The translations under genes were made by a program, and so were the position numbers. A stretch of 64,000 nucleotides of DNA from Microbacter sp. GSS18 (GTDB lineage: Bacteria; Actinomycetota; Actinomycetes; Actinomycetales; Microbacteriaceae). Under the pieces are notes generated by a model that saw only the letters and a program-made list of their open reading frames with translations, did no database searches and was not told the origin of the DNA. The stretch is from assembly GCA_029319145.1 (NCBI GenBank), contig CP119753.1, forward strand, positions 1,116,001-1,180,000, written 5' to 3'. The stretch's first letter is position 1. Every line of letters begins with the position of its first letter. Shown piece after piece: positions 941-59,443 of the stretch.

Positions 941-1731
941 CCTCGCGCGTGTCGGCCGCCATCGACGCCGCGCGCGCCGCGGGGCGCGGAGCGTTCGTCG
1001 GCTACCTGCCGATCGGCTATCCCGACCTGCAGACGAGCATCGAGGCGGCGGTGACGCTCGCCGAGAACGGCGCGGACATCCTCGAGCTCGGCCCGCCGTA
1101 CTCGGATCCGGTGATGGACGGCCCCATCATCCAGGAGGCCACGACGGCGGCCCTCGCCGCCGGCTTCAAGCTGCGCGACACCTTCACCGCGGTGCGCGAG
1201 ATCGTACGGCGCGTCGACGTGCCCGTGCTCGTCATGACGTATTGGAACCCCGTGCTCCAGTACGGCGTGGACCGGTTCGCCGACGAGCTCAGCGCCGCGG
1301 GCGGCGCCGGCCTCATCACCCCCGACATCACGCCGGACGCGGCGGGGGAGTGGGTCGCCGCGAGCACGCGCACCGGGCTCGACCGGGTCTTCCTGGCGGC
1401 CCCGACCTCCACCGAAGACCGGCTCCGGATGATCGTCGAGAACTCCACCGGCTTCGTGTACACCGTCTCGACGATGGGCATCACGGGGGAGCGGGCGCAG
1501 CTCGACGCCGCCGCGCGCACGCTCGTCGCCCGGCTGCGCGAGCACGGGGCCGGCCACGCCTGCGTCGGCATCGGCATCTCGAACGCCGAGCAGGTCGCCG
1601 GCGTGCTCGAGTACGCCGACGGCGCCATCGTCGGCACAGCCCTCGTCCGCGCCCTGCGCGACGGCGGCCTCGAGGGTCTCGCGGCCGCCGCACGCGACCT
1701 CGCCGGTGGCACAGCGCTCCACTCGATCTAG
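937..1731 (+). CDS. trpA: Tryptophan synthase alpha subunit
   Basis: TrpA cleaves indole-3-glycerol phosphate to indole and glyceraldehyde 3-phosphate and channels indole to TrpB. The 264-residue product is of normal length. The catalytic pair is visible: E50 in ILELG and D61 in SDPVMDG, which match Glu49 and Asp60 of the well-studied enteric enzyme. The ATG at 937 overlaps the trpB stop by four bases. A longer open frame extends upstream, but it only overlaps trpB in another frame. It is followed after 53 bases by lgt, as in other actinobacteria. Confidence 0.97.
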
Positions 1732-1784
1732 ACTTCACACGTCGGCAATCCCCGGCACACCCACCAGCAAGGACCCGATCGCAC

Positions 1785-2771
1785 ATGATCCATGCCGCGC
1801 ACAGCTTCACGAACACCCTCGTCGCCAGCATCCCGAGCCCGTCGATCAGCTACTTCGACCTGGGGCCGCTGCGCGTCCACATCTACGCGCTGTGCATCAT
1901 CACGGGCATCATCGTCGCGGTCCTGATGACCAACCACCGCCTCACCAAGCGCGGGGCGGAGCCCTGGGTGGTCATCGACATCGCCCTCATCGCCGTCCCG
2001 CTCGCCATCATCACGGCGCGCATCTACCACGTGCTCACGCACTGGAGCTTCTACTTCGGCGAGGGCGCCGACCCGCTCACCGCGCTCTACATCTGGGAGG
2101 GCGGCATCGCCATCTACGGCGCGCTAATCGGCGGCGCCGTGGGCGCGTGGCTGGGATGCCGCTGGACCGGCATCCGCTTCTGGTCGTTCGCCGACGCCCT
2201 GGCACCGGGCATCCTGCTCGCACAGGCCATCGGACGCTTCGGCAACTGGTTCAACCAGGAGCTGTTCGGGCTTCCCACCGACCTGCCGTGGGGCCTCGAG
2301 ATCGACAGCGACAACCCCGCCTTCCCGCCGGGGCTCGAGCCCGGAACGCTGTTCCACCCGACCTTCCTGTACGAGGTCCTCTGGAACACGCTCGGCGTGC
2401 TGGTGCTGCTGTGGGCCGGTCGCGCCCTCAAGCTCCAGTGGGGCAAGCTCTTCGCCCTCTACCTCATCTGGTACAGCGCGGGCCGCGTCGTGTGGGAGTC
2501 CATCCGCATCGATCCGAGCGAGATCATCCTGGGCCTGCGCACCAACGTGTGGGCCGCCATCATCGGCGTCCTGCTCGGTCTCGTCATCATCGTCGTGCAG
2601 ACGCGGAGGCACCCGGGGATCGAGGCGTCGCCGTATTCTCCGGGCCGCGAATGGCGCCCGGACGGACCTGTACAATCTCAGGACACCGACGACTACGTCG
2701 ACGTCAGCGAACCGCCGGCGGCCGAGGAAGTCACAGCGAACGCCACAAGCACTGTCGCCACGAAGAAGTAA
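1785..2771 (+). CDS. lgt: Prolipoprotein diacylglyceryl transferase
   Basis: Lgt transfers diacylglycerol from phosphatidylglycerol to the lipobox cysteine of prolipoproteins at the cytoplasmic membrane. The 328-residue product has several hydrophobic segments and the family signature GRFGNWFNQE at about residues 149-158. The ATG at 1785 begins MIHAAHSF. The histidine found in the HGGLIG motif of enteric Lgt is a tyrosine here (IAIYGALIGG), which is common in actinobacterial versions. A hydrophilic tail of about 50 residues rich in E, D, T and A follows the last membrane segment. The stop codon lies inside an 18-base tandem duplication. Likely substrates in this window include the FKBP lipoprotein at 44265-45227, and Lnt is encoded at 36985-38565. 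Confidence 0.95.
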   Translation: MIHAAHSFTNTLVASIPSPSISYFDLGPLRVHIYALCIITGIIVAVLMTNHRLTKRGAEPWVVIDIALIAVPLAIITARIYHVLTHWSFYFGEGADPLTALYIWEGGIAIYGALIGGAVGAWLGCRWTGIRFWSFADALAPGILLAQAIGRFGNWFNQELFGLPTDLPWGLEIDSDNPAFPPGLEPGTLFHPTFLYEVLWNTLGVLVLLWAGRALKLQWGKLFALYLIWYSAGRVVWESIRIDPSEIILGLRTNVWAAIIGVLLGLVIIVVQTRRHPGIEASPYSPGREWRPDGPVQSQDTDDYVDVSEPPAAEEVTANATSTVATKK

Positions 2772-2800
2772 CGCACGCTCCGGAAGTAACGCACGCTCCG
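2765..2800. repeat. 18-bp perfect tandem duplication over the lgt stop
   Basis: The unit GAAGTAACGCACGCTCCG occurs twice back to back, at 2765-2782 and 2783-2800. The first copy carries the lgt stop TAA and the second copy is untranslated. It looks like a recent slippage duplication. Confidence 0.9.
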
Positions 2801-2861: not shown

Positions 2862-8922
<6,061 letters not shown>

Positions 8923-12454: not shown

Positions 12455-12501
12455 GGGCGACCTCTCGTACGTGACGCGGGGGGAGTGTCCGCGGCCGCGA
12501 C

Positions 12502-12513: not shown

Positions 12514-15153
12514 GTGACGGACTCCGCAAAGCCTACCCTCCTGGTCGTCGACGGCCATTCGCTGGCGTATCGGGCGTTCTACGCGCTTCCGATCGACAAT
12601 TTCTCGACCAAGGACGGCCAGCACACCAACGGCATCTACGGGTTCCTGGCGATGCTCGTGAACCTGATCAAGGCCGAGAAGCCGACGCACATGGCCGTCG
12701 CGTTCGACACGTCGCGTCAGTCGTTCCGGACGCGGGAGTACGCCGAGTACAAGGCGAACCGTTCCGAGACCCCGGCCGAGTTCAAAGGGCAGATCCCCCT
12801 GCTCCAGGACTGCCTGGCGGCGATGGGCATCACGGTGCTCCAGAAGGAGGACATCGAGGCCGATGACATCCTCGCCACACTCGCGACGCAGGGCGCCGAG
12901 CGCGGGTACGAGGTGCTGGTGTGTTCGGGGGACCGCGACACGATCCAACTCGTCGACGACGACATCACGCTGCTCTACCCCAACGTGCAGGGCGTGTCGC
13001 AGCTCAAGCGCTACGACCCGGACGCGGTGGTCGAGAAGTACGGGCTCCCGCCCGCGCAGTACCCCGACATCGCGGCGCTCGTCGGCGAGACCAGCGACAA
13101 CCTGCCGGGCGTGCCCAAGGTCGGCGAGAAGACCGCTGTGAAGTGGCTGACGCAGTTCGGCACGCTCGACGAGCTGCTCGAGCGCTCGGGCGAGATCAAG
13201 GGAGTCGTCGGCGGCAACCTTCGCGAGCACCTCGACGACGTGCGCCGCAACCGTTCCCTGAACGCGCTGCTGCGCGACGTCGAGCTGCCGGTGGGCGTGG
13301 ACGATCTCGCGGTCCGCCCGATGGACGCGCAGGCCGTGCGAGACATCTTCGCGCGCCTCGAGTTCCGCACACTGCTGCCGCGCGTGTTCGAGGCCGCCGG
13401 TGTCGACGAGGCGATGGCCCCTGCCGCGCAGACGCCCGCCGTGACCATGCCCGAGCCCGCCGAACCCGACCCTGCCGCGTTGCGCGCGTTCGTCGAGGGC
13501 GCCGACGGCGACGTCGGCCTCACGATCGTGATCGAGGGCGGTCTGCCGGTGCGCCTCGGCGTCGCGACGGCGGATGCCGCGGCCGAAGCGGCGTGGGGGG
13601 ATGACGTCGCCGAAGCCCTCGGTCCCTGGCTGTCCTCGCCCGCACCGAAGGTCGTCAGCGACGCCAAGTCGCACGTGAAGGCCCTGCGACGAGCCGGCGT
13701 CCGGCTGGACGGCCTGGCGTTCGACCCGATCATCGCCGGGTGGCTCGTGCGCCCGAGCTTCCCCGACAAGACCCTCGCCGACCTCGTCGAGCGGTACCTC
13801 GACGAGAAGCTTCCCGAAGCCGATCCCAGCCAGCTCGTACCCGAGACCGAGGGTGCGACGCCGGGCCAGCTGGCGTGGTTCGCACTGCGCGTGGCCGGCG
13901 CCCTGCGCGCCGATCTGCCGGCGAAGGTCGCCGGCGTGCTCACCGACATCGAGCTGCCGACGCTGCAGTCGCTTGCGGACATGGAGCTGGCCGGCGTCGC
14001 CGTCTCGCACGAGAAGCTCTCGGGGTTCTCGGGCGAGCTCGCGCAGCGCGCCGACGGCATCGCGCAGGAGGCCTTCGCCACGATCGGCCGCGAGGTGAAT
14101 CTCGGCTCGCCCAAGCAGCTGCAGGAGGTGCTGTTCGAGGATCTCGGGCTGCCGAAGACGCGCAAGACCAAGACCGGCTACTCGACCGATGCGGCGGTGC
14201 TCGCAGACCTGCAGGAGTCGAGCCCGCATCCGTTCCTCGATCTGCTGCTTCAGCACCGGGAAGCGACCAAGCTGCGTCAGATCATCGAGTCACTGGACGG
14301 CTCCATCGCATCGGACGGCCGGATCCATACGACATACGTCCAGACCGGCAGCCAGACCGGACGGCTCAGCAGCACCGACCCCAACCTGCAGAACATCCCG
14401 GTCCGCACCGACGAGAGCCGCCGCATCCGCGCGGCCTTCGAGGTGGGCTCGGGCTACGAGACGCTGCTGACGGCCGACTACTCGCAGATCGAGATGCGCA
14501 TCATGGCCCATCTGTCGGAGGATCCGGGCCTCATCGAGGCGTTCAACTCCGGCGAGGACCTGCACCGCTTCGTCGGCGCGCGCGTGTTCGGCGTGAACCC
14601 CGAGGACGTCACGCCGGCGATGCGCACGAAGGTCAAGGCGATGTCGTACGGCCTGGTGTACGGCCTGTCGGCGTTCGGGCTGTCCAAGCAGCTGCGCATC
14701 GAGCAGTCCGAGGCCAAGCAGCTCATGATGGAGTACTTCGCGCGATTCGGCGCCGTTCGCGACTATCTGCGCTCGTCGGTCGAGCAGGCCCGCATCGACG
14801 GCTACACCGAGACGATCTTCGGGCGGCGCCGGCCGTTCCCCGATCTCGGCAGCCCGAACCGCGTGCTGCGCGAGAACGCCGAACGCGCGGCGCTGAACGC
14901 CCCCATCCAGGGCAGCGCCGCCGACATCATGAAGATCGCGCTGTTCCGCATCCATGGGGAGTTCCTCACGGCCGGAATGGACTCACGGGTCCTGCTGCAG
15001 ATCCACGACGAACTGGTCGTCGAGGTCGCGCCGGGGGAGTGGGATGCGGCCGAACGCATCGTCCGCGAGCGCATGGGCGGCGCCGCCGAGCTCTCGGTGC
15101 CGCTGGACGTCCAGATCGGGCGCGGCGGCGACTGGGACGAGGCGGCGCACTGA
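12514..15153 (+). CDS. polA: DNA polymerase I
   Basis: PolA processes Okazaki fragments and fills repair gaps. The 879-residue protein has an N-terminal 5'-3' nuclease domain (about 1-300), a middle domain that lacks recognisable 3'-5' exonuclease residues (about 310-490), and the polymerase domain (about 500-879). Polymerase motif A is DYSQIEMR with D655, motif B is RTKVKAMSYGLVYG, and motif C is QIHDELVVE with D832. The inactive-looking proofreading domain is usual in actinobacteria. The GTG start follows TAGGCT by six bases, which suggests a leaderless message. Confidence 0.97.
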   Translation: MTDSAKPTLLVVDGHSLAYRAFYALPIDNFSTKDGQHTNGIYGFLAMLVNLIKAEKPTHMAVAFDTSRQSFRTREYAEYKANRSETPAEFKGQIPLLQDCLAAMGITVLQKEDIEADDILATLATQGAERGYEVLVCSGDRDTIQLVDDDITLLYPNVQGVSQLKRYDPDAVVEKYGLPPAQYPDIAALVGETSDNLPGVPKVGEKTAVKWLTQFGTLDELLERSGEIKGVVGGNLREHLDDVRRNRSLNALLRDVELPVGVDDLAVRPMDAQAVRDIFARLEFRTLLPRVFEAAGVDEAMAPAAQTPAVTMPEPAEPDPAALRAFVEGADGDVGLTIVIEGGLPVRLGVATADAAAEAAWGDDVAEALGPWLSSPAPKVVSDAKSHVKALRRAGVRLDGLAFDPIIAGWLVRPSFPDKTLADLVERYLDEKLPEADPSQLVPETEGATPGQLAWFALRVAGALRADLPAKVAGVLTDIELPTLQSLADMELAGVAVSHEKLSGFSGELAQRADGIAQEAFATIGREVNLGSPKQLQEVLFEDLGLPKTRKTKTGYSTDAAVLADLQESSPHPFLDLLLQHREATKLRQIIESLDGSIASDGRIHTTYVQTGSQTGRLSSTDPNLQNIPVRTDESRRIRAAFEVGSGYETLLTADYSQIEMRIMAHLSEDPGLIEAFNSGEDLHRFVGARVFGVNPEDVTPAMRTKVKAMSYGLVYGLSAFGLSKQLRIEQSEAKQLMMEYFARFGAVRDYLRSSVEQARIDGYTETIFGRRRPFPDLGSPNRVLRENAERAALNAPIQGSAADIMKIALFRIHGEFLTAGMDSRVLLQIHDELVVEVAPGEWDAAERIVRERMGGAAELSVPLDVQIGRGGDWDEAAH

Positions 15154-16893: not shown

Positions 16894-17517
16894 TCACGCG
16901 GGGAGGTCGTCGGACAGCAGTCCGATGACCTCCTCGTCCTTCGTCTGGGTGAAGTCGTCGTAGAACTGCCCGACCGCCCAGAAATCGGCGATCGGATGCG
17001 GGCACACGTACTCATCGACCGCGCCCGGTGGCGGACTCCATGCCGCGGGGGCGACGGGGGAGGCGAGCACGATGCGCGACGCACCCTCCGCGCGCAGCGC
17101 CAGGCACGCCGCCGTGGCGGTGGCGCCGGTCGCGATCCCGTCGTCCACGACGAGCGCGGTGCGGCCGGCGAGATCGGCCACGCGGCGCGGGAACGCCGTG
17201 CTCCGTCGGGCGAGCTCCTTTCGCTCGCTTTCCTCGACGGCGGCGAGGTCGCTCTGGCTCACACCGCCGGCAGCCCGGTCGTCGACGACCCGGACTCCCG
17301 CGGCGATGGCTCCGACGGCGTACTCCTCGTGCGCCGGTGCGCCGAGCTTGCGCACGACGACGACATCGAGCGGCAGCCCGAGCGCGGCGGCGACGCGCGC
17401 GGCGACGACCACCCCGCCGCGGGGGATGCCGAACACCACGGCGTCGGACCCGCGCCACGACGTCAGCGCCGAGGCGAGGTCGTCCCCGGCGGCCCGCCGG
17501 TCGGCGAACAGCGCCAT
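16894..17517 (-). CDS. Phosphoribosyltransferase-domain protein
   Basis: The protein has the type I phosphoribosyltransferase fold, with the PRPP-binding signature ALVVDDGIATGAT near the middle of the chain and an N-terminal MALFADRRAAG segment typical of the COG1926 group. Reading from ATG 17517 gives 206 residues. Longer in-frame starts at 17577 and 17661 add a basic, low-complexity N-terminus and are less likely. The substrate is unknown, since the family includes predicted PRTases never assigned to nucleobase salvage. A second PRTase domain lies at the end of the RecQ helicase 0.5 kb away. Confidence 0.85.
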   Translation of the reverse strand: MALFADRRAAGDDLASALTSWRGSDAVVFGIPRGGVVVAARVAAALGLPLDVVVVRKLGAPAHEEYAVGAIAAGVRVVDDRAAGGVSQSDLAAVEESERKELARRSTAFPRRVADLAGRTALVVDDGIATGATATAACLALRAEGASRIVLASPVAPAAWSPPPGAVDEYVCPHPIADFWAVGQFYDDFTQTKDEEVIGLLSDDLPA

Positions 17518-20225: not shown

Positions 20226-20231
20226 GGGGGA

Positions 20232-20999
20232 GTGAGCAGCATCCGCTATGTGGCCATCGGGGACTCCTTCACCGAAGGCGTGGGTGACGACCTTCCCGAC
20301 GGCCGCGTGCGCGGCTGGGCCGACCTCGTCGCACAGGGATGGGCCGATGCCACGGCAGGCAGCGTCGACTACGCCAATCTGGCCATTCGCGGCAGGCTCG
20401 TGTGGCCGATCGTCGACGAGCAGCTCGAGCAGGCTCTGGCCCTCGGCCCCACCCACCTGTCGTTCAACGGCGGCGGGAACGACATGCTGCGCCCGCGGAC
20501 GAACATCGCCAAGGTGACGACGGCGTTCGAGCGGGTGCTCACGCGCTGCGACGACGAGGGCGTGCGGCTCATCGTGCTGTCGGGCGCCAACCCCTCCCCG
20601 CAGCTTCCGCTCAGCCGGGTCATCCAGCGCCGCGGCGACCAGCTCTCCGCAGCGGTCGCCGAGGTGCTGAAGGACCGCCCCGATGTGATCCGCGCCTTCA
20701 ACTGGCCGGACCGGGAGCTCTCGACACCCCCGTACTGGTCGGAGGACCGCCTGCACATGAACCTGCGGGGGCACCACCGGGTCGCGGCGCGCGTGCTGAC
20801 CGCGCTGGGGTTCGAGCCGCCCGCGGAGTGGTGGTCGCTGCCCGAGCTGTCCGTCGCCGGGATGCGCGGCGCGTCGTACTACCGCGAGCACGTCGGCCCG
20901 TGGGTGCGCCGACGGCTCACGGGCACGTCATCGGGCGACGGCCGGGAGCCCAAGTACGGCGCGTGGCATCAGGTCGTGCCGAGCGGAGCCACGGCATAG
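20232..20999 (+). CDS. SGNH/GDSL hydrolase
   Basis: This is an esterase or lipase-like hydrolase of the SGNH fold. Block I is VAIGDSFTEGVG with the nucleophile serine, block II is LAIRGR, block III is NGGGNDML, and block V is DRLHMNLRGHH with the catalytic Asp and His. There is no signal peptide, so it is probably cytoplasmic. It is a paralogue of the protein encoded at 53675-54547, sharing the block I core IGDSFTEGVG, NLAIRGRL and IVDEQ. The 3' end overlaps the convergent DHFR-like gene by 31 bases. The substrate is unknown. Confidence 0.9.
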   Translation: MSSIRYVAIGDSFTEGVGDDLPDGRVRGWADLVAQGWADATAGSVDYANLAIRGRLVWPIVDEQLEQALALGPTHLSFNGGGNDMLRPRTNIAKVTTAFERVLTRCDDEGVRLIVLSGANPSPQLPLSRVIQRRGDQLSAAVAEVLKDRPDVIRAFNWPDRELSTPPYWSEDRLHMNLRGHHRVAARVLTALGFEPPAEWWSLPELSVAGMRGASYYREHVGPWVRRRLTGTSSGDGREPKYGAWHQVVPSGATA

Positions 21000-21553
21000 G
21001 AGAGCTCGGCGAACTGCCCCGCCTGGCGCGCGGCGGTCAGCTGCAGCCGTCCGGAGCCGAGGGCCCGGGGGAGCAGCGGCTTGCCCGAGACGAGCGTCAC
21101 GGGCGCGACGCTCAGCCGCACCTCGTCGAGCAGACCGGCGTCGGCGAACTGCCCGACGACATCGCCGCCGCCGACGAGCCACACCGTCTTGTCGCCGGCC
21201 GCAGCGGCGATCTCAGGCCACAGATCGGCAGCGGCCCCGGAACGGACGCGGATATCGCAGTCCGCGGGCACATCGTGCGGGCGTGTGGACAGCACGAAGG
21301 CCGGGCGGTCGCCGTACATGTCGCGCCACAGCTGGGGCCGGAGGAGCAGCCGCTCGTGCGCGAGAACCCACTCGTACGTGGCCGAGCCCATGACGAAGGT
21401 TCCGACGCCGGCGAGGAAATCGGCGAACCCGCTCTCGGCATCGTCGGCGCCCGGCACGGCGAAGAGCCAATCGAGGGAGTCACCGTCGTCGGCGAGGAAA
21501 CCGTTGAGCGTCGTCGCGGTGTTGAAGACGACCTGGGGTCGTGTGGTGTCCAT
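20969..21553 (-). CDS. Dihydrofolate reductase/RibD C-terminal-like reductase
   Basis: The 194-residue product belongs to the RibD C-terminal or YwjB/YyaP-like group. It begins with a beta strand and substrate loop (VVFNTATTLNGFLA), has a central GTFVMGSATYEW segment, and has a glycine-rich NADPH loop (VWLVGGGDVVGQF). Such proteins are related to dihydrofolate reductase but usually do not act on folate, and their substrates are unknown. ATG 21553 is preferred, although GTG 21562 is possible. Both the gene and the protein overlap the end of the SGNH gene tail to tail. Confidence 0.85.
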   Translation of the reverse strand: MDTTRPQVVFNTATTLNGFLADDGDSLDWLFAVPGADDAESGFADFLAGVGTFVMGSATYEWVLAHERLLLRPQLWRDMYGDRPAFVLSTRPHDVPADCDIRVRSGAAADLWPEIAAAAGDKTVWLVGGGDVVGQFADAGLLDEVRLSVAPVTLVSGKPLLPRALGSGRLQLTAARQAGQFAELSYAVAPLGTT

Positions 21554-28737: not shown

Positions 28738-28788
28738 TACCATGCTCCAGCGGTTTCGGCGCCACGTGCGGGAATCCCTCTCGAGCGC

Positions 28789-29441: not shown

Positions 29442-29447
29442 GCCGAG

Positions 29448-30452: not shown

Positions 30453-30619
30453 GCACGGTCGTCCGCCCCGCGGGGCCCGCCGCGACACCCGAGCCGCTCC
30501 CCCGGCACCGCCGCGTCGGCCCCGACACAGGACACGGGACCTTCGATCCCCCGTTCGCGTGCCGGGCGCCACTAGACTCCGAGTGCATCATTCCCAGGGA
30601 ACTCTCAGAAAGGACCCCC

Positions 30620-36984: not shown

Positions 36985-38565
36985 TCAGCCCTCCTGCGCA
37001 GCGCCGGTCCCCTCGGGGGCCGGCGTCTTCTTGTTCCAGCGGCGGAATCGCAGCACGAATCCGAGCGCGGCCAGCCAGATCACGCTGCCCCACCCGAGGA
37101 CGGCCTGCACGCCCGGGCCGATCAGCACAGCGGGGGTCAGCCCCGTCCGCAGCGGGACGTCGGTCAGCATGTGCCCCGCCTCGCCCGCGCCCAGCGACTC
37201 CAGCGTCGACCCGTCGGGGGCGATGACCTGGCTGGTGCCGACCGTCGAGATGTTCACGACCGACCGCCCCGTCTCGATCGCGCGCATGCGGGCGAAGGCG
37301 AGCTGCTGCAGGTTCTCGTCGGTGTCGCGGAAGTCGGCGTTGTTCGTCTGGAACATGTACACCTGGGCACCGTCTGCGGCGCCCTCCCAGATGACGTCGT
37401 CGTAGATGACGTCGAAGCAGATCGCCAGGCCCACGCCCACGCCGTCCACGTCGAAGAACGGCGGATTCGTCCCCGGCGTGTACTCGCGCTGGATGAGTCC
37501 GATGAGGTCGGGCACGATCATCTCGTAGAACCAGCGATCGGGGACGTACTCCCCCATCGGCACAGGATTGCGCTTGTCGTGGATCTGCACCGCACCCTCG
37601 CCCGCGATCCAGTGGATCGAGGTGTTGAACGTGTCGTCGCCGCGTGTCGTGGCGGCGTTGACGACCAGCGGCGCGTCCAGCCGCTCGGAGACGGCGTCCA
37701 GGACCGACGCGGTGGCGTCATTCGACAGCGGGTCGGAATCGATGCCGCCTTCGGGCCACAGCAGCACGTCGACGTCCTCGCCGATGAGCGGCACCGTCGC
37801 CTCGAGCTGGGCGTCGAGCACCGCGTTGCGCGCGCGCTCGTCGAAGTAGCCGCTCGGGCCGTTGCCCTGGACCGCGCCGACCCGCAGCGTGCCGGCGGGG
37901 CTCGTGGGGAACGCCGGCACCGCCAGCAGCAGCACGGCGAGACCGGCGGCCGGCACCGCCGTCCGCACATCTCGCAGCCGCCCGACGCGCAGCCACTCGA
38001 TGACCGCCGCGGCGAAGAAGACCATCAGGAAGGTCAGGCCCGATACGCCGAGCCACGACGCGATGTGGGCGAGCGGGCTCTCGGACTGGCTCATGCCGAT
38101 CCGTCCCCACGGGAAGCCGGTGTAGGGCCACGAGCCCATGAACTGCTCACGCGCCGTCCACAGCCCCGCCACGAGCGCCGGCAGCAGGAGGAGACGCGTC
38201 CACAGCGACGTGGAGAACTGCGGCATCCACCGGTACGCCAGCGTGAGGAGGATGGATCCCACGGCCAGGAAGACCGTCTCGATGCCGGCCAGGGCGAACC
38301 ACGGGATCAGCCCGAGGTAACGGGTGATCCACACGATGTGCGTGAAGTAGAACGTGGCGCCGAAGACGAAGCCGACAAGGACCGATCCCCACAGACTGCG
38401 ACCGATCAGCCCCACGAGCGACAGTCCCACGCCCACGACCGCGAGCGGCCACCATCCGACGTCGGGGAACGACAGATCCAGCAGAAGGCCGCCGACGACC
38501 GCGGCCATGACGGCGAACCACAGGGGCAGGACCGGGCGCGGGCGCCGACTCGGCGAGGGGGGCAT
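36985..38565 (-). CDS. lnt: Apolipoprotein N-acyltransferase
   Basis: Lnt adds the third acyl chain to the N-terminal cysteine of lipoproteins. The 526-residue product has about seven membrane segments in the first 215 residues, a carbon-nitrogen hydrolase domain (about 225-475) and a last membrane segment. The catalytic triad is E272 (WPEGG), K331 (HDKRNP) and C383 (AICFDV), matching E267/K335/C387 of the E. coli enzyme. The gene has a TAGGCT box seven bases before ATG 38565. It indicates that triacylated lipoproteins are made in this Gram-positive cell. Confidence 0.93.
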   Translation of the reverse strand: MPPSPSRRPRPVLPLWFAVMAAVVGGLLLDLSFPDVGWWPLAVVGVGLSLVGLIGRSLWGSVLVGFVFGATFYFTHIVWITRYLGLIPWFALAGIETVFLAVGSILLTLAYRWMPQFSTSLWTRLLLLPALVAGLWTAREQFMGSWPYTGFPWGRIGMSQSESPLAHIASWLGVSGLTFLMVFFAAAVIEWLRVGRLRDVRTAVPAAGLAVLLLAVPAFPTSPAGTLRVGAVQGNGPSGYFDERARNAVLDAQLEATVPLIGEDVDVLLWPEGGIDSDPLSNDATASVLDAVSERLDAPLVVNAATTRGDDTFNTSIHWIAGEGAVQIHDKRNPVPMGEYVPDRWFYEMIVPDLIGLIQREYTPGTNPPFFDVDGVGVGLAICFDVIYDDVIWEGAADGAQVYMFQTNNADFRDTDENLQQLAFARMRAIETGRSVVNISTVGTSQVIAPDGSTLESLGAGEAGHMLTDVPLRTGLTPAVLIGPGVQAVLGWGSVIWLAALGFVLRFRRWNKKTPAPEGTGAAQEG

Positions 38566-38607: not shown

Positions 38608-41097
38608 CTACACCGACGTGTAGGCCACGATGCCGCGCCGGACCTGGTCCAGCGCGCGCCGGGCCGTCGTCGCGACCTCGGGGGCTGCCACGAGCGAGAG
38701 CTGATCCAGCAGATCGATCGTCTGCTTCGCCCACCGCACGAAGTCGCCCGCTGCCATGTCGGCCTCGATGAGGACGCGGTCGAGCGCAGCACCGCGCGCC
38801 CACGAGTGCATCGCCTGCGCGAGCCCCGCAGCGACCGGCTCGGAGCCGGGAAGGTGATGATCGCGCTCGAGGTCGTCCAGCCGCGCCCACAGCTCCTGCG
38901 TCGCGGTGAGCGCGAGGCGGAACGCACCCCGCGGCAGCGATCGCTCGCCGGTCTCGTCTCGGCGCGGTTCGTACACGAGGCAGCACGCCAGGGCGGCCAG
39001 CGACGGCGCGTCCAGCGTCCGCCACAGCCCCTGGCGCAGGCTCTCGGCCACGAGCAGGTCGCGCTCGCCGTAGATCCGGCGCATCGTGCGGCCGGCGTCG
39101 GTGAGGACGGTCCTGCCCTCGTCGTCGACCGCCACGTAGTCGACCTCGGTCAGCACGTCGACGACGCGGTCGAACACGCGCGCGACGGTTCCGGTGCGGT
39201 TCTGGATCTGCCGCCGCGTGCGCTCCACGTCGCGGCGCAGCCGCCAGTAGCGCTCGGCCCACCGCGCGTGGTGCTCGCGATCGGGGCACTGATGGCACGG
39301 ATGCCGCTGCATGCGCTTCCGCAGACTCGCGATCTGCTTCTGGCGCTGATCTCGGGTCGCGCGCGACGCGCCGGCGTCCTTGCGGTTGACCTTCTCCAGG
39401 TCGCTCAGCTCGCGGCGGATCGAGGAGTACGCGGCGAAGTCCCCGCGGTCGCAGGACATCGCGTCCTGGTACCCGGCGAGCGACTCCTCCTTCTCCTTCA
39501 CCTCGCGGGCGAGCCCGACCACCGACCGATCGGCCTGGAACTGCGCGAACGATGACTCCAGCACCTCGCGCGCGCGGGGGCGCCCGAATTGGTCGATGAG
39601 ATTGACGGCCATGTTGTACGTGGGCCGGAAGCTGGAGTTGAGCGGATACGTGCGCCGGGACGCCAGCGCGGCGACCGCCTGCGGATCCAGCCCCTCGGTC
39701 CACTGGATGACGGCGTGGCCCTCCACGTCGATGCCGCGGCGGCCGGCGCGACCGGTCAGCTGGGTGTACTCCCCCGACGTGATGGCCACGCGGGCTTCGC
39801 CGTTGAACTTCTCGAGCTTCTCGAGCACGACCGTCCGCGCTGGCATGTTGATGCCCAGCGCCAGTGTCTCGGTGGCGAAGACGGCCTTGAGGAGCTTGCG
39901 CTGGAAGAGCTCCTCCACGACCTCCTTGAAGGCCGGGAGGAGTCCCGCGTGGTGGGCCGCGACGCCCCGCTCGAGGTTGTCGAGCCACTCCCAGTAGCCG
40001 AGCACGGCGAGGTCTTCGTCGGGGAGCGTCCGCATCCGCAGCTCGGCGGTCTCGCGGATCTCGCGACGCTCCTCGGCCGACGTCAGCCGCACTCCGCCCC
40101 GGCGCACCTGCTGGACGGCGGCGTCGCAGCCGGCCCGGCTGAAGATGAAGAAGATCGCGGGGAGCAGATTGGCGCGGCCGAGCAGCCGGATGACGTCGGG
40201 CCGGTCGATGCGCTCGATGCGCTGGACGTTCGCGGCCCGCACCGGGCGGCGTCCGCCCCGGTTCGGCCGGCGCGACCCGTATCCGTCGCGATGACCGCCG
40301 CTGCGCGCCGACTGCGCTCCGCGGTTTCGCTCGAAGTTCGCTCCTTTGAAGGAGCGGATGCGCATCAGCTCCTGGTTCACCTGCGCCGTCGCGACGCCGG
40401 CGCGGTCGTCGAACAGCGGCAGCAGGTCGTCGCGCACCAGCACGTGCTGCTCGAGCGGGACGGGACGGATCTCCGACACGATCACCTCGGTGTCGCCGCG
40501 CACCGTGTCGAGCCAGTCGCCGAACTCCTCGGCGTTCGAGACGGTCGCCGACAGCGCGATGAGCCGCACCGCGCGCGGCAGGTGGATGATGACCTCCTCC
40601 CACACCGCGCCGCGGAAGCGGTCGGCGAGGTAGTGCACCTCGTCCATCACGACGTAGCGCAGCCCCCGCAGGGCCGGCGAGTCGGCGTACAGCATGTTGC
40701 GCAGGACCTCGGTGGTCATCACGACGATGCGCGCCGACGCGTTGATGTTGGTGTCGCCCGTGAGCAGGCCCACCTCGTCCGCACCGTACACGGCCTGGAG
40801 CTCGCGGAACTTCTGGTTGGACAGCGCCTTCATCGGCGTCGTGTAGAACGCCTTGTCCCCCGGCTCGCGCATCGCGAGGTGGATCGCGAACTCGCCGACG
40901 ATCGTCTTGCCCGCGCCGGTCGGCGCGGCGACCAGCACGCCGTGGCCGGACTCCAGAGCACGGCATCCGGCGAGCTGGAACTCGTCCAGCTCGAACCGCT
41001 GGGAGGCCGCGAAGTCGGCCGTGACGGGATGCTCGCGATCGGCGACGGCTTTCGCCCGGGCCCGAGCGTAGCGCTCGCCCGGGCCGGGCTCGCTCAT
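38608..41097 (-). CDS. helY: Ski2/Mtr4-like superfamily 2 helicase HelY
   Basis: The 829-residue protein has Walker A APTGAGKT, DEVH box VVMDEVHYLADRFRG, motif VI QLTGRAGRRGID and a C-terminal DSHCT-like region. An arginine- and glycine-rich insert (about residues 245-275) and a CHQC cluster lie in the middle. The family unwinds RNA in eukaryotes, and the mycobacterial homologue next to tatC is called HelY. The ATG at 41097 overlaps the tatC stop by four bases, giving an order pafB-pafC-tatA-tatC-helY as in Mycobacterium. Its physiological substrate is not established. Confidence 0.92.
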   Translation of the reverse strand: MSEPGPGERYARARAKAVADREHPVTADFAASQRFELDEFQLAGCRALESGHGVLVAAPTGAGKTIVGEFAIHLAMREPGDKAFYTTPMKALSNQKFRELQAVYGADEVGLLTGDTNINASARIVVMTTEVLRNMLYADSPALRGLRYVVMDEVHYLADRFRGAVWEEVIIHLPRAVRLIALSATVSNAEEFGDWLDTVRGDTEVIVSEIRPVPLEQHVLVRDDLLPLFDDRAGVATAQVNQELMRIRSFKGANFERNRGAQSARSGGHRDGYGSRRPNRGGRRPVRAANVQRIERIDRPDVIRLLGRANLLPAIFFIFSRAGCDAAVQQVRRGGVRLTSAEERREIRETAELRMRTLPDEDLAVLGYWEWLDNLERGVAAHHAGLLPAFKEVVEELFQRKLLKAVFATETLALGINMPARTVVLEKLEKFNGEARVAITSGEYTQLTGRAGRRGIDVEGHAVIQWTEGLDPQAVAALASRRTYPLNSSFRPTYNMAVNLIDQFGRPRAREVLESSFAQFQADRSVVGLAREVKEKEESLAGYQDAMSCDRGDFAAYSSIRRELSDLEKVNRKDAGASRATRDQRQKQIASLRKRMQRHPCHQCPDREHHARWAERYWRLRRDVERTRRQIQNRTGTVARVFDRVVDVLTEVDYVAVDDEGRTVLTDAGRTMRRIYGERDLLVAESLRQGLWRTLDAPSLAALACCLVYEPRRDETGERSLPRGAFRLALTATQELWARLDDLERDHHLPGSEPVAAGLAQAMHSWARGAALDRVLIEADMAAGDFVRWAKQTIDLLDQLSLVAAPEVATTARRALDQVRRGIVAYTSV

Positions 41098-47075: not shown

Positions 47076-47945
47076 GTGAACGCACTGGGTCGACGGGTGC
47101 TGGTCGCCGCATTCGACGGATGGAACGACGCGGGAGAAGCCGCGTCGTCAGCCATCACGCAGCTGCGGGAGTCCGGCGCGTACGAACCGGTGTTCTCCGT
47201 GGACCCAGAGCTGTACTTCGACTACCAGTACACGCGGCCGCACATCGCGACCGACGGCACCACGGGTCAGCGGATCCTCAAGTGGCCCGAGGCCACGATC
47301 CTCAAGCCCACGCGCCCGACCCGCGGCACGCAGCTGTGGCTGCTCACGGGCGTCGAGCCCGCTCGGGCCTGGCAGGCGTTCTCAGCCGAGTTCATCGACG
47401 TGGCGCTGCGCGAGGACATCACCGGCTTCGTCTCGATGGGATCGATGATGTCGGATGTGCCCCACACGCGCCCCATCTCGGTCTTCGCAGGCAGTGAGAG
47501 CGAGCAGGTCCGCGCGACTCTCGGCCTCGAGCGCAGCACCTACGAGGGTCCCGTCGGGATCCTCAGCGTGCTCACGCACGCGGCCGACACGGCCGGCATC
47601 GCCACGGCCGGGCTGTGGGCGAGCGTGCCGCACTACGTCGCCGGCCACACACCGTCGCCGAAGGCGACGCTCGCGCTGCTGGATCGGCTCGAGGACATCA
47701 CCGGGGCGTCGGTGCCGCGCGGGAGCCTCGCGACCGAGGCTGCCGCCTGGGAGGCCTCGATCGATGCGGCCGCCGCCGATGACGAGGAGATGACGGAGTA
47801 CATCCGCCAGCTCGAGCACACCCGCGACACGTGGGACTCCCCCGAGGCCTCGGGGGACGCCATCGCGCAGGAGTTCGAACGGTATCTGCGTCGCGGCGGC
47901 GGCGAAGGGCCCCACAAGCCGGGGCGCGACGACCCCGCGCGCTGA
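47076..47945 (+). CDS. PAC2-family protein
   Basis: The 289-residue product matches the PAC2 (proteasome assembly chaperone-like) ATP-grasp-associated family of actinobacteria, with the N-terminal VLVAAFDGWNDAGEAAS motif and a central GSMMSDVPHTRP segment. The last 60 residues are acidic and helical. AGAGGAGGT precedes GTG 47076. The function is unknown, and it appears as a single plus-strand gene among minus-strand neighbours. Confidence 0.9.
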   Translation: MNALGRRVLVAAFDGWNDAGEAASSAITQLRESGAYEPVFSVDPELYFDYQYTRPHIATDGTTGQRILKWPEATILKPTRPTRGTQLWLLTGVEPARAWQAFSAEFIDVALREDITGFVSMGSMMSDVPHTRPISVFAGSESEQVRATLGLERSTYEGPVGILSVLTHAADTAGIATAGLWASVPHYVAGHTPSPKATLALLDRLEDITGASVPRGSLATEAAAWEASIDAAAADDEEMTEYIRQLEHTRDTWDSPEASGDAIAQEFERYLRRGGGEGPHKPGRDDPAR

Positions 47946-47971: not shown

Positions 47972-48796
47972 TCAGTAGGCCTCGATGACGCCCATCGCCA
48001 GGAGCACCAGCAGGGTCGATCCGAGCGCCACGCGGTAGACGACGAACGGCAGGAAGCTGCGCTTGGAGATCCAGCTCATGAAGAACGCGATCACGCCGAG
48101 CGCCACGACGAACGCCACGCCGGTCGCCACGGCGGTCTCGCCGAGCGTGAAGACACCCGGCTCGTCCCAGCTCTTGATGAGCTGGTAGAAGCCCGACCCG
48201 AACACCGCCGGGATCGCCAGCAGGAACGCGTAGCGGGCGGCGGCGGCGCGCTCGTAACCCATGAAGAGCCCCGCGGTGATGGTGCCGCCCGAGCGCGAGA
48301 CGCCCGGGATGAGCGCGAGCGATTGCGCGAACCCGTAGACGACGCCGTGCCCGACCGTCAGGTCGTTCAGCCTGCGCCGCTTGGCGCCCACCAGGTCGGC
48401 GATGCCCAGCAGCACGCCGAAGAAGATCAGCATCCCCGCCACGAGCCACAGTGAGCGCAGGGTGGTCTCGATCTGGTCCTGGAAGAGCAGACCGAGAACG
48501 ACGATCGGGATCGACCCGATGATGATCAGCCACCCCATGCGGGCGTCGGGGTCGCCCCGCGGGATTCGTCCCAGAAGCGCCTGGAACCAGTGCGACACGA
48601 TGCGCACGATGTCGCGCCAGAAGAAGACCACGACGGCCGCCTCGGTGCCGATCTGGGTGATCGCTGTGAACGCTGCACCCGGGTCCTGCGCCGTCGGGAG
48701 GAACTCCCCCAGGATCCGCAGATGCGCCGAGGAGGACACGGGAAGGAACTCGGTGAGACCTTGGACCAGGCCGAGGATGATCGCCTCGAGCAGCAT
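47972..48796 (-). CDS. uppP: Undecaprenyl-diphosphatase UppP (BacA)
   Basis: UppP dephosphorylates undecaprenyl diphosphate to recycle the cell-wall lipid carrier. The 274-residue membrane protein has the two signature motifs, [14 protein letters not shown] near the N-terminus and [13 protein letters not shown] in the middle, and about eight hydrophobic segments. AAAGGCGC precedes the ATG. The UppP type of enzyme is also known to confer bacitracin tolerance when overproduced. Confidence 0.96.
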
Positions 48797-48844: not shown

Positions 48845-50146
48845 TCAGTAGGAGCGGAGGAGGTCGGTCAGCACGGCCTGGCCGAACACGAGCGCGTCGA
48901 TCGGGACGCGCTCGTCCACACCGTGGAACATGCCGGTGAAGTCGAGGTCCGCCGGCAGCCGCAGCGGTGCGAAGCCGTAGCCGCGGATGCCCAGGGCGGC
49001 CAGTGCCTTGTTGTCGGTGCCGCCGCCCATGAGGTACGGGATCACCGGGACGCCCGGATCGTGGCGGCCCAGTGCGTCGACCATCGCGTCGACCAGGTCG
49101 CCCGAGAAGGGGACCTCGAGGCCGATGTCGCCGTGGACCAGCTCGACGTCGATGTCGGGCCCGACGATGCGGCGGATGTCGGCGAGGGCCTGCTCCTCGG
49201 TGCCCGGGAGCACCCGCACGTCGATGAGGGCCTCGGCACGGTCGGGGATGACGTTGTGCTTGTACCCCGCGGTGAGCCCGGTGGGGTTGGTCGTGGTCCG
49301 CAGCGTCGAGCGGACGAAGCCCGCCGCCGCACCGACCGAGGCCGCGACCGCGTCGGGGTCCGCGGGATCGGTGCCCGTCAGACGCGCGAGTCCCTCCACC
49401 ATCGAGCCGGTGGTGTCGGTCAGCTCGACCGGCCACGCGGTGCGCCCGAGCCGGGCCACCGCTTCGGCCACCGCCGTGACGGCGTTGTCGTGGTGGAAGC
49501 TCGATCCGTGCGCCGCGCGGCCGCGCGCCACGAGGCGGATCCACAGCAGCGCCTTCTCCCCCACCTGGAGCAGGTACGCGCGGTCCGAACCCGCCGCGAT
49601 CGAGTAGCCTCCCACCTCGCTGATCGCCTCGGTCGCCCCGGCGAACCATTCCGGACGGTTCTCGACGACGAGCGCCGAACCCTCGACCCCGCCGTTCTCC
49701 TCGTCCGCGAAGAAGGTCACCACCAGGTCGCGCTCGGGCTGTGCGCCGGCACGGAGGATATCGGCGACCGACGTCAGGATCATGGCGTCCATGTCCTTCA
49801 TGTCGACGGCGCCGCGCCCCCACAGCATGCCGTCGCGGATCTCTCCCGCGAAGGGGTCGACGCTCCAGTCCTCGGCCACAGCCGGGACGACGTCGAGGTG
49901 GCCGTGCAGCACGAGCGCGGGCTTGTCGCGATCGCGACCGGGCACGCGCACCGACACGTTCGTCCGGCGCGGGATCGGCTCGTAGTACTCCGGCTCGAGT
50001 CCGAGCGCGCGCAGGTACTCCCCCACGTACTCGGCGGCCTCGCGCTCGCCCTTGGCGCGTCCGCCGCCGTGGTTCGTGGTGTCGAACCGGATGAGGTCGC
50101 GGGCGATCCGGGCGACCTCGGGCAGGGACGCATCGGGCGTGGGCAT
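48845..50146 (-). CDS. M20-family metallopeptidase
   Basis: The 433-residue protein has the M20 zinc residues: HGHLDVVPA, GRGAVDMKDM and ADEENGG, with a dimerisation domain in the middle. The family includes dipeptidases, deacetylases and carboxypeptidases, and the substrate is unknown. ATG 50146 (MPTPDASL) is preferred to an upstream start because TAGGTT lies seven bases before it. It is 48 bases downstream of uppP's start, on the same strand, upstream of uppP in transcription order. Confidence 0.92.
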   Translation of the reverse strand: MPTPDASLPEVARIARDLIRFDTTNHGGGRAKGEREAAEYVGEYLRALGLEPEYYEPIPRRTNVSVRVPGRDRDKPALVLHGHLDVVPAVAEDWSVDPFAGEIRDGMLWGRGAVDMKDMDAMILTSVADILRAGAQPERDLVVTFFADEENGGVEGSALVVENRPEWFAGATEAISEVGGYSIAAGSDRAYLLQVGEKALLWIRLVARGRAAHGSSFHHDNAVTAVAEAVARLGRTAWPVELTDTTGSMVEGLARLTGTDPADPDAVAASVGAAAGFVRSTLRTTTNPTGLTAGYKHNVIPDRAEALIDVRVLPGTEEQALADIRRIVGPDIDVELVHGDIGLEVPFSGDLVDAMVDALGRHDPGVPVIPYLMGGGTDNKALAALGIRGYGFAPLRLPADLDFTGMFHGVDERVPIDALVFGQAVLTDLLRSY

Positions 50147-53674: not shown

Positions 53675-54547
53675 ATGGCGCGCAACGATCCCGCACCGGA
53701 GCCGAATCGCACACCCTACGTCCCCAACGCGACGCCGCACCCCTGGCACCGCTACGTGGCGATCGGCGACTCGTTCACCGAAGGCGTCGGCGATCCGGAG
53801 CCGTCGCTGCCCAACGGGCTGCGCGGCTGGGCCGACCGGGTCGCCGAGGTGCTCGGCAGCCAGGTCGAGGACTTCGCGTACGGCAACCTCGCCATCCGCG
53901 GCCGCCTGATCCAGCAGATCGTCGACGAGCAGGTCGAGCCCGCGCTGGCGCTCAACCCCGACCTCGTGACCTTCTCGGCCGGCGGGAACGACGTCATCCG
54001 CCCCGGCAGCGACCCCGACAAGGTCGCCGAGATCTTCGAGGACGCCGTCGTGCGGCTGTCCAGCGGCGGCGCCGCCGTCTTGGTGTTCACGGGGATCGAC
54101 ACCAACTTCACCCCCGTATTCCGGGGCATCCGCGGAAAGGTCGCGATCTACAACGAGAACATCCGGGCCATCGCCGACCGCTACGACGCGATCGTGGCCG
54201 ATCAGTGGGCGCTCAAGGAGATCCAGGACATGCGGTTCTTCGACGACGACCGCCTGCACCTGAACGCGCTCGGCCACCACGAGGTCGCCCGCATGGCGCT
54301 GCGGGTGCTGAACGTGCCCAACGACCTCCAGCCCATGCAGCCCGAGCCACTGCCCGCCCGAACGTGGCGCGCGGCTCGCGGCAGCGACCTGGTGTGGGCG
54401 CGCACCCACCTGGTCCCGTGGGTGCTGCGGCGGCTGCGCCATCAGTCCTCGGGCGACACCGTCACCGCCAAGCGTCCCGAGCCGCTGCCGGTCACGATCC
54501 CGGCGGCCGCTCCCCCGGTGGCCACGCCGACGGATCCCGAGGCCTGA
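53675..54547 (+). CDS. SGNH/GDSL hydrolase, paralogue of the 20232-20999 protein
   Basis: The 290-residue product has the same SGNH blocks as its paralogue: VAIGDSFTEGVG, NLAIRGRL, SAGGNDVI and DRLHLNALGHH. A longer C-terminal tail rich in P and A follows, and there is no signal peptide. AGGTCAGGAGG precedes ATG 53675. The two paralogues lie on the same strand but on opposite sides of dif, about 33 kb apart. A GGGGGAG copy on the minus strand (54510-54516) sits inside this plus-strand gene. Confidence 0.9.
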   Translation: MARNDPAPEPNRTPYVPNATPHPWHRYVAIGDSFTEGVGDPEPSLPNGLRGWADRVAEVLGSQVEDFAYGNLAIRGRLIQQIVDEQVEPALALNPDLVTFSAGGNDVIRPGSDPDKVAEIFEDAVVRLSSGGAAVLVFTGIDTNFTPVFRGIRGKVAIYNENIRAIADRYDAIVADQWALKEIQDMRFFDDDRLHLNALGHHEVARMALRVLNVPNDLQPMQPEPLPARTWRAARGSDLVWARTHLVPWVLRRLRHQSSGDTVTAKRPEPLPVTIPAAAPPVATPTDPEA

Positions 54548-57789: not shown

Positions 57790-58268
57790 CGTTCCTCCTC
57801 GGCGGCATCGCGGAACCACATCAGGGCGACCCGCGTGGCGAGGGCGACGACGGCACCGTCCTGATTGCGGCCCGTGTGGCGCATCGTGATGATCCCCTGG
57901 CCGTCGCGCGAGGCCGATGCGCGCTTGTCGAGGATCTCGGTCTCGGTGTACAGCGTGTCGCCGTGGAAGAGCGGGGCGGGGAACGAGACGTCGGTCAGGC
58001 CGAGCTGCGCGACGAGCGTGCCCTGCGTGAGCTGCGCGACCGATGCGCCCACCATCGTCGACAGCGTCCACATGCTGTTCATCAGGCGCTGCCCGAACGG
58101 CTGAGCCTTCGAGAAGGCGGCGTCGAGGTGGAGCGCCTGCGTGTTCATCGTCAGCGACGAGAACAGCACGTTGTCGGCCTCGGTCGCTGTGCGTCCCGGG
58201 CGGTGGAGATAGCGGGCGCCCACCTCGATCTCGTCGTAGTAGAGCCCGCGCTGGACGATGTCGGTCAC
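57786..58268 (-). CDS. MaoC-like enoyl-CoA hydratase
   Basis: The 160-residue hotdog protein has MaoC-like features: a VGARYLHRPGRT-type substrate loop, DAAFSKAQPFGQRLM and FPAPLFHGDTLYTETEI, with the Asp and His of the hydratase motif. It lies between the acyl-CoA dehydrogenase and CitE genes, the position of Rv2499c in Mycobacterium, and would hydrate an enoyl-CoA such as 3-methylglutaconyl-CoA. GTG 58268 is used. A GGGGGAG copy overlaps its ribosome-binding region. Confidence 0.88.
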   Translation of the reverse strand: MTDIVQRGLYYDEIEVGARYLHRPGRTATEADNVLFSSLTMNTQALHLDAAFSKAQPFGQRLMNSMWTLSTMVGASVAQLTQGTLVAQLGLTDVSFPAPLFHGDTLYTETEILDKRASASRDGQGIITMRHTGRNQDGAVVALATRVALMWFRDAAEEER

Positions 58269-58291
58269 CGCTCCCCCTTCGCCTCTGACAG

Positions 58292-59443
58292 TCACGCTAC
58301 CCCGAGGCTGCGCGCGATCACGAGCAGCTGCACTTCGCTGGTGCCCTCCCCCACTTCGAGGATCTTCGAGTCCCGGTAGTGGCGTGCGACGGGGTACTCG
58401 TTCATGAACCCGTTGCCGCCGAAGATCTGCGTCGCGTCGCGGGCATTGTCCATGGCGGCGTCGCTCGCGGTGAGCTTCGCGATCGCCGCCTCGGTCTTGA
58501 ACGGCCGCCCGGCATCCCGCAGCCGTGCCGCGTGGTGCCAGGCGAGGCGCGCCGTGTGCACGCGGGCCTGCATGCGGGCCAGCGTGAACTGGATGCCCTG
58601 GCGCGCGGACAGCCGGTCGCCGAACACGATGCGCGTTCCGGCGTAATCGACGGCGGCCTCGAGACAGCCTTCCGCGGCCCCGGTGGCCAGCGCCGCGATG
58701 GCGATGCGCCCCTCGTCGAGGATGTGCAGGAAGTTCGCGAACCCTCGTCCTCGCTCGCCGAGCAGATTCTCCGCCGGGACGCGGGCGCCCTGGAACGTGA
58801 GCGGATGCGTGTCGGACGCGTGCCAGCCGACCTTGTCGTACGCCGGCTCGACGGTGAAGCCCGGAGTGCCGTTGGGCACGATGATCGTCGAGATCTCCTT
58901 GCGCCCGTCGTGCTCGCCGGTGACGGCGGTCACGGTGACGAATCGCGTGATGTCCGTTCCCGAGTTCGTGATGAACTGCTTCGTCCCGTCGATGACCCAT
59001 TCGCCGTCCTCGAGGCGGGCGGTGGTGCGGGTGGCGCCGGCATCGGACCCCGCTTCGGGCTCGGTGAGGCCGAAGCCTGCGAGGGCCGTGCCGGAGAGCA
59101 GGTCCGGGAGCAGCTGCTGCTTCTGCTCGTCGCTTCCGAACCGGAACACCGGCATGGCGCCGAGGCTGACGCCTGCTTCGAGGGTGATCGCGATCGACTG
59201 GTCCACCCGCGCCAGCGCCTCGATGGCCAGGCACAGCGCGAAGTAGTCGCCGCCCTGACCCCCGTGCTCCTCGGGGAAGGGCAGGCCGAAGAGCCCCATC
59301 TCGCCCATCTGCGCCACGACGTCCATCGGCAGCGCGTGCGACCGGTCGGCTTCGTACGAGCGGGGGGCGACGACCTCCTCCGAGAAGGAGCGGACGAGCC
59401 CGGCCAGCTCGCGCTCGTCGTCGCTGATGTCGTAGGGGTACAT
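58292..59443 (-). CDS. Acyl-CoA dehydrogenase, probable isovaleryl-CoA type
   Basis: The 383-residue flavoprotein has the signatures AGFGLTEPEAGSD, QFITNSGTDITRFV and the C-terminal IFGGNGFMNEYPVARHYRD. By position in a carboxylase-MaoC-CitE cluster it is likely to oxidise a short branched acyl-CoA such as isovaleryl-CoA. ATG 59443 follows GAGGAG by five bases. ATG 59464 overlaps the preceding stop and would add seven residues. Confidence 0.92.
   Translation of the reverse strand: MYPYDISDDERELAGLVRSFSEEVVAPRSYEADRSHALPMDVVAQMGEMGLFGLPFPEEHGGQGGDYFALCLAIEALARVDQSIAITLEAGVSLGAMPVFRFGSDEQKQQLLPDLLSGTALAGFGLTEPEAGSDAGATRTTARLEDGEWVIDGTKQFITNSGTDITRFVTVTAVTGEHDGRKEISTIIVPNGTPGFTVEPAYDKVGWHASDTHPLTFQGARVPAENLLGERGRGFANFLHILDEGRIAIAALATGAAEGCLEAAVDYAGTRIVFGDRLSARQGIQFTLARMQARVHTARLAWHHAARLRDAGRPFKTEAAIAKLTASDAAMDNARDATQIFGGNGFMNEYPVARHYRDSKILEVGEGTSEVQLLVIARSLGVA

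Follow-up and report, generated by a model that had tools for sequence, protein, structure and literature searches.

In the terminus region of the actinobacterium Microbacter sp. GSS18, the heptamer GGGGGAG points at dif, the XerC/XerD recombination site, and it very probably serves this bacterium, and the majority of the actinobacteria examined, as FtsK-orienting polar sequence (KOPS). The starting point was a stretch of 64,000 nucleotides (G000:C1:1116001-1180000, hereafter the window) of its genome, which is a single contig of 4,033,441 bases (G000), together with an earlier note, made from the letters of this stretch, in which a behaviour like that of KOPS or of architecture imparting sequences (AIMS) was proposed. 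The proposal is supported by the rank of the word in the genome, by controls with anagrams and by recurrence in 30 genera, and GGGGGAG is a real and strong polar word, apparently under selection. In the following, counts such as 30/0 give the copies pointing toward and away from dif, and published papers are cited for particular passages.

In E. coli, the gamma domain loads FtsK on a word in one orientation, and the motor reaches XerCD at dif and activates XerD (PMC5357621). An analogous mechanism could be proposed for GGGGGAG. On both arms, most copies read 5'-3' in the direction from the origin to dif and so point at dif from either side; when the septum closes, one of them would be bound by the winged-helix gamma domains of FtsK, and the motor would thereby be assembled facing dif; FtsK would then pump DNA until it meets XerC/XerD at dif, which would trigger dimer resolution. 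Both the binding of GGGGGAG by the gamma domain and the setting of the translocation direction by this binding are suggested by that analogy.

Polarity around dif and along the chromosome

The dif pattern has one match in the genome, at 28710-28739 of the window. The earlier note had listed 30 copies of GGGGGAG, 17 on the plus strand (1344 to 28359) and 13 on the minus strand (29373 to 58352), and all of these positions were confirmed by a recount (Table 1). All copies left of dif are on the plus strand and all copies right of it on the minus strand (30/0), and the interval of the switch, 28359 to 29373, contains dif as claimed; that is, the polarity reverses at dif, as is characteristic of KOPS. 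This is the largest strand skew among the 4768 heptamer pairs with unequal counts in the window, followed by CGGGGGA (26/1), which overlaps GGGGGAG, and CTGTCGG (19/0). The latter was considered as a second polar signal and rejected, since it counts 213/189 in the genome sample described below; its polarity in the window is a local coincidence. The 30 copies compare with 13.2 predicted by the genome mean and with a mean of 14.5 in dinucleotide shuffles of the window, none of which reached 30 in 100 trials. The GC skew of the window is close to zero: read toward dif, the fractions of G and C are 0.349 and 0.359 on the left, and 0.360 and 0.354 on the right.

Beyond the window, 60 spaced stretches of 20 kb, about 30% of the genome, were oriented toward dif and counted. 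The dnaA gene is located at 3,076,281, nearly opposite dif (about 1,144,725). GGGGGAG counts 194/22 in this sample and has the top skew of the 4387 heptamers that occur 40 times or more. From dnaA to dif, the two arms have opposite polarities (95/1 and 99/21), which agrees with the switch that the earlier note expected from genome-wide counts. On the two strands of the whole genome, 391 and 439 copies were found (830 in total); the reversed word GAGGGGG has 263 and 253. Judged by the definitions of AIMS in PMC5993296, GGGGGAG is more frequent on the leading than on the lagging strand (194 of 216 copies, 90%), as compared with a leading-strand share of 70% or more in the figure for E. coli in that paper. 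Both its leading-strand abundance and its strand bias rise toward the terminus: the ter-proximal quarter contains 57/2 copies and 204 per Mb, and the origin-proximal 60% contains 112/17 and 151 per Mb (p = 0.0003 with the window included), while the bias is 0.966 versus 0.868 (p = 0.03), with 30 of 30 in the window. Consequently, the perfect polarity described in the earlier note is a property of the terminus region, and that of the rest of the genome is about 90%.

Table 1. Positions of dif and of the GGGGGAG copies in the window
Feature	Position	Strand	Basis
dif, motif polarity flip point	28710..28739	-	sequence; one pattern match in G000
GGGGGAG toward dif	1344..1350	+	
GGGGGAG toward dif	1485..1491	+	
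GGGGGAG toward dif	7205..7211	+	
GGGGGAG toward dif	8859..8865	+	
GGGGGAG toward dif	12479..12485	+	
GGGGGAG toward dif	15033..15039	+	
GGGGGAG toward dif, within minus-strand gene	17056..17062	+	
GGGGGAG toward dif	20226..20232	+	
GGGGGAG toward dif, within minus-strand gene	21067..21073	+	
GGGGGAG toward dif, within minus-strand gene	22753..22759	+	
GGGGGAG toward dif	23897..23903	+	
GGGGGAG toward dif	24917..24923	+	
GGGGGAG toward dif	25930..25936	+	
GGGGGAG toward dif	26617..26623	+	
GGGGGAG toward dif	27394..27400	+	
GGGGGAG toward dif	27497..27503	+	
GGGGGAG toward dif, final copy left of dif	28353..28359	+	
GGGGGAG toward dif, nearest copy right of dif	29373..29379	-	
GGGGGAG toward dif	30497..30503	-	
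GGGGGAG toward dif	31369..31375	-	
GGGGGAG toward dif	32944..32950	-	
GGGGGAG toward dif	37549..37555	-	
GGGGGAG toward dif	39769..39775	-	
GGGGGAG toward dif, within plus-strand gene	47837..47843	-	
GGGGGAG toward dif	48704..48710	-	
GGGGGAG toward dif	49556..49562	-	
GGGGGAG toward dif	50018..50024	-	
GGGGGAG toward dif, within plus-strand gene	54510..54516	-	
GGGGGAG toward dif	58271..58277	-	
GGGGGAG toward dif	58346..58352	-	

It should be noted that two short minus-strand frames right of dif (28790-29450) resemble, by eye, a PIN-type toxin and its antitoxin.

The word and its putative reader in other actinobacteria

Of 60 Microbacteriaceae genomes, one per genus, 50 have a match to the dif pattern, G000 included, as have 85 of the 98 genomes of the class, again with G000. 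From the 49 other Microbacteriaceae genomes with a match, 30 were selected for an unambiguous dif and a long contig, with 20 kb on either side of dif (one arm of G016 is 6.3 kb). In these 30 genera GGGGGAG counts 615/3, with no reversed copy in 28 of them, and it ranks first among the heptamers in 23, second in four, third in two, and 1161st in G009 (2/0); the polarity noticed in one genome thus recurs across the family. In ten genomes of eight other families, treated in the same way (one arm of G071 is 7.5 kb), the count is 170/4, with the first rank in five and no reversed copy in seven. Four further genomes of other families, with 10 kb on either side, gave 14/1, 9/0, 8/0 and 14/0, the word being first in two, second in one and outside the top three in G090.

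In addition, at least 120 stretches with dif from named records, all counted, gave 673/13 for GGGGGAG, the top heptamer, and 114/71 for the control GAGGGGG. When 110 of the 120 were sorted into groups, the counts among the matches listed included 129/2 for Nocardiopsis, 108/3 for Blastococcus, 80/1 for Microbacterium, 60/3 for Geodermatophilus, 37/1 for Frankia, 32/0 for Nocardia, 29/0 for Nocardioides, 22/0 for Jiangella, and 13/0 for three metagenome-assembled contigs of Acidimicrobiaceae. This set and the 30 genera share at least two organisms (Okibacterium and Frondihabitans) and are not fully independent.

The polarity belongs to the exact word. In the 30 genera, the share of copies pointing toward dif is lowered by every one of the 21 single-base changes of GGGGGAG, to 39-88% by 20 of them and to 96% by the remaining one, GGGGGGG, whose copies come mostly from one genome. 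GGGGGGG was rejected as a polarised word in its own right (88/4), as 74 of the 88 copies come from G023 alone; the dif flanks of that genome (L095-L096) hold 74 overlapping positions, all toward dif, which suggests a long G-run repeat. The 3' flanking base is free (A 149, C 174, G 137 and T 155 among the toward copies). The six other words of one A and six G are far less polar than GGGGGAG, with 66-76% toward dif in the 30 genera, as compared with 99.5%; in the ten other genomes they reach 32-73%. The comparison with heptamers of the same composition, proposed in the earlier note, thus came out in favour of the motif.

The copies also become denser near dif. In the 30 genera, an arm holds about 0.96 copies per kb in the 2 kb next to dif and about 0.4 at 20 kb, with an uneven decrease in between, and the median distance from dif to the nearest copy is 748 bases. 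With genome sizes rounded, the density near dif exceeds the genome mean in all 30 genomes of the family (median 2.28-fold) and in eight of the ten others (median 1.84), where the medians for the reversed control word are 0.97 and 1.16, respectively.

As for the putative reader, the host FtsK carries the domain by which KOPS are read: one FtsK gamma domain (PF09397) was found in the genome of GSS18, with 80.4 bits against a cut-off of 30.6, and at least one in each of the 30 other genomes searched. Four gamma matches occur in one genome (G014:C2), two of them about 750 bases apart, which perhaps belong to translocases of mobile elements. Four tyrosine-recombinase matches were found in the genome of GSS18. 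Of 31 actinobacterial sequences, one per genome, 30 share an identical helix stretch of 23 residues in the gamma domain, and that of G005 has one change. The stretch was compared with gamma chains in the PDB, which we take to be those of E. coli (2j5p) and Pseudomonas, and numbered on the assumption that E. coli FtsK ends at residue 1329; R1300 and E1306 are kept, E1303 is replaced by D and N1296 by A. N1296 contributes to KOPS reading in E. coli. The mutants R1300A and E1303A, and a triple mutant including E1306A, are impaired in KOPS reading there (PMC2680272).

Could the polarity exist where dif is not matched? The dif pattern is absent from all eight genomes of one genus (family f18, genus g79; 7-10 Mb), which are probably Streptomyces with linear chromosomes. 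G074, a single contig of 9,170,506 bases with dnaA at 4.50 Mb, was read on its left arm. From the left end to 555,503, 100 copies of GGGGGAG point outward and 20 inward (83% outward), and inward copies amount to 42 per Mb in the first 2.38 Mb versus 124 per Mb on the same strand of the whole contig. G126 (5 contigs), with dnaA at 3.45 Mb, similarly has few forward copies to the left of that gene, in its first 1.77 Mb. The ratio of GGGGGAG to the control word is 1.1-1.3 in the six f18 genomes counted, versus a median of 1.7 in Microbacteriaceae. The outward polarity of G074, a genome without a dif match, implies that the polarity does not need dif. We lean, with some reservation, toward a broader reading, in which virtually the entire class Actinomycetes, and perhaps Acidimicrobiia, would have GGGGGAG as KOPS, locked to a near-invariant gamma helix unlike the proteobacterial one, and in which the word would work without dif, outward to the chromosome ends.

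Other explanations of the polarity

Gene direction combined with codon choice could leave a polar word as a by-product, and it is true that the genes called near dif in the 30 genera run mostly toward it (673 versus 368) and that one reading frame is favoured: xxG GGG GAG, the codon phase pointed out in the earlier note, is the commonest, being used by 16 of the 21 copies that lie in dif-directed genes of the window. However, the five copies that had been described as lying against gene direction, at 17056, 21067 and 22753 in minus-strand genes and at 47837 and 54510 in plus-strand genes, were all confirmed by the second of two gene callers, which replaced a cruder first one, gene calls being approximate. 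The first caller had placed 22753 in a plus-strand open reading frame (ORF); this is a shadow ORF, and the minus-strand ORF at 22450-23382 matches Pfam Indigoidine_A with 376 bits. In the genes of the 30 genera that run away from dif, GGGGGAG counts 155/0, where synonymous shuffling of codons within genes leads one to expect 59/23, and in those running toward dif it counts 376/2, with an expectation of 100/85. This origin of the polarity is hence extremely improbable.

Since the shuffle overestimates several G-run words, four anagrams were used as a calibration. In the 30 genera, the ratio of observed to shuffled copies is 3.29 toward and 0.02 away for GGGGGAG, and 0.64-1.18 toward and 0.29-0.46 away for the anagrams; the away ratio of GGGGGAC is also low (0.15). 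In the genome of GSS18, the anagrams are at 0.29-0.60 of the null, so that GGGGGAG, with 1.08 toward and 0.15 away, is raised in the one direction and lowered in the other relative to them. The idea that polarity far from dif arises through purging of reversed copies alone was dropped after this calibration. As a separate observation, several G-run heptamers are at 0.3-0.6 of the synonymous shuffle in both directions in the coding sequence of the 60 stretches, and in the 30 genera the deficit of G-run heptamers is mainly in the away direction.

It is also very improbable that the word has no reader and merely reflects replication-strand mutation bias or G-run skew. GGGGG (1261/860) and GGGGGAC (92/39) are skewed as well in the sample of the GSS18 genome, the latter imperfectly, as stated in the earlier note, and much of the heptamer skew is explained by hexamer context. 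Nevertheless, GC skew is about zero, between -0.046 and 0.031 near dif in all 40 genomes, the anagrams of identical composition are far less polar, and such a bias predicts neither the density peak at dif nor the specificity for single bases. The polarity of GGGGGAG does not depend on the direction of genes, on codon usage or on base skew.

Another polar reader is unlikely. In that case, GGGGGAG would be a Chi-like recombination signal, by which RecBCD or AdnAB would be regulated, or be recognized by a different strand-specific protein, with a leading-strand bias that serves the repair of broken forks. Chi-type sites are likewise G-rich, abundant and biased to the leading strand, and the bias of GGGGGAG persists in G074, where no dif was matched. 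On the other hand, the density of GGGGGAG peaks within 2 kb of dif, and the reversed copies near dif are only 3 of 618, whereas Chi is strand-biased without a rise toward the terminus (PMC5993296).

Convergence on the terminus would also fit a replication fork trap, in which polar Ter-like sites halt forks near dif, for this is the geometry of fork traps. Such traps have far fewer sites than the 830 copies counted in the genome, however, and the copies of GGGGGAG extend up to the origin. E. coli has fewer than 20 Ter sites (PMC5993296), and we would give a fork trap next to no chance.

Several observations weigh against GGGGGAG being the KOPS. In the genome of GSS18, 22 of the 216 sampled copies outside the window point away from dif, the two arms are unequal, and 7 of the 22 sit in one stretch 15-35 kb past dnaA. 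At the origin end of the switch, the opposite polarity of the arms stands, but the stretch immediately beyond dnaA has copies of both orientations (4/7). The rise in density near the terminus has p = 0.04 without the window, and there is a weak, irregular gradient at more than 250 kb from dif (188, 136, 185 and 120 per Mb). The first rank of the word holds for uncorrected skew; after maximal-order Markov correction its z is 2.4, below the top value, because the hexamers inside GGGGGAG are already skewed. Among the other genomes, the word is weak within 20 kb of dif in G009 (51% GC, 2/0) and G062 (3/1), and in G061 it counts 8/0 with no gain in density near dif; all three have the usual gamma helix. 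Finally, the copies in G074 point outward from dnaA though no dif was matched.

Two of these cases may be described further. The stretch past dnaA (L048, 3091201-3111200 of G000) is the only sampled one in which reversed copies (7) outnumber forward ones (4); one of the reversed copies lies, by eye, in a tRNA-like sequence, and reversed copies concentrate on the arm holding this stretch. In G062 (family f6, genus g67), GGGGGAG is 2.6 times as frequent as the reversed control genome-wide, but shows no enrichment around dif, where 40 kb hold 3/1.

With GGGGGAG as the very probable KOPS, actinobacteria would gain a precise and testable candidate for an FtsK signal. The conserved word and the near-invariant helix would allow swaps of gamma domain and word between E. 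coli and actinobacteria, a direct test of co-evolution, and a polarity found where no dif is matched would set the pumping of chromosomes apart from the resolution of dimers.

Comparison with known polar sequences

GGGGGAG is not new as a sequence, and the novelty implied by the earlier note was too strong: the same heptamer was published in 2010 and 2011 within the Corynebacterium AIMS (T/C)GGGGGAG. AIMS plots with the octamers G(A/T/C)GGGGGA and (T/C)GGGGGAG exist for C. aurimucosum, with 856 leading and 61 lagging copies (PMC2830990, which cites Hendrickson and Lawrence 2006), and for C. variabile (PMC3219685). A text search also listed the Corynebacterium genome papers PMC3164646, PMC3022926 and PMC3350403 as containing the string GGGGGAG. 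No publication joining KOPS or AIMS with Microbacteriaceae or GGGGGAG was found among the matches listed, and a word search of the main text of PMC5993296 gave no 'Microbacter-' string. In the passages cited, no actinobacterial KOPS word is named in PMC3025954, PMC11898615 or PMC13277299, the last two being recent papers on FtsK of Corynebacterium and Mycobacterium in which KOPS are described from E. coli. The present analysis adds the occurrence in Microbacteriaceae, the breadth, the exact heptamer and, at one end of a genome in which no dif was matched, a polarity that points outward.

The Corynebacterium AIMS resemble the present word in that the heptamer is identical and biased to the leading strand, and they were used there to locate dif. 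They differ in being octamers, reported for one genus, whose reader is left unassigned in the passages cited (PMC2830990, PMC3219685). Unlike those reports, the present analysis gives a heptamer core with a free 3' flank, the density near dif, controls and a comparison of the gamma helix.

The KOPS of E. coli and Vibrio, GGGNAGGG, are similarly G-rich, non-palindromic, converging on dif and denser near it, and they are read by the winged helix of FtsK gamma (PMC2680272, PMC5357621). GGGGGAG is nevertheless another word, a heptamer instead of an octamer, and the words of E. coli and actinobacteria do not cross over. In the dif flanks of E. coli (27 and 23 kb), GGGNAGGG counts 10/0 and GGGGGAG, not clearly polarised, 2/1, both numbers being small. 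Conversely, the E. coli type of sequence is not the polar one in the 30 genera, where GGGCAGGG is unpolarised (28/30), GGGAAGGG counts 8/12 and GGGTAGGG 6/6. The count of 86/19 for GGGGAGGG consists of 57/0 when G precedes, and GGGGGAG is thus contained, and 29/19 otherwise.

A length of seven has a precedent in the KOPS of Lactococcus lactis, which is also a heptamer (PMC5357621). That word is A-rich, whereas GGGGGAG is G-rich. In Bacillus, the word of the SpoIIIE recognition sequences (SRS) is GAGAAGGG. Like GGGGGAG, SRS are polar words, of 8 bases and mostly on the leading strand, and they guide pumps of the FtsK family (PMC5357621). They differ in the word itself and in the pumps, SftA and SpoIIIE, of which SpoIIIE is needed in sporulation.

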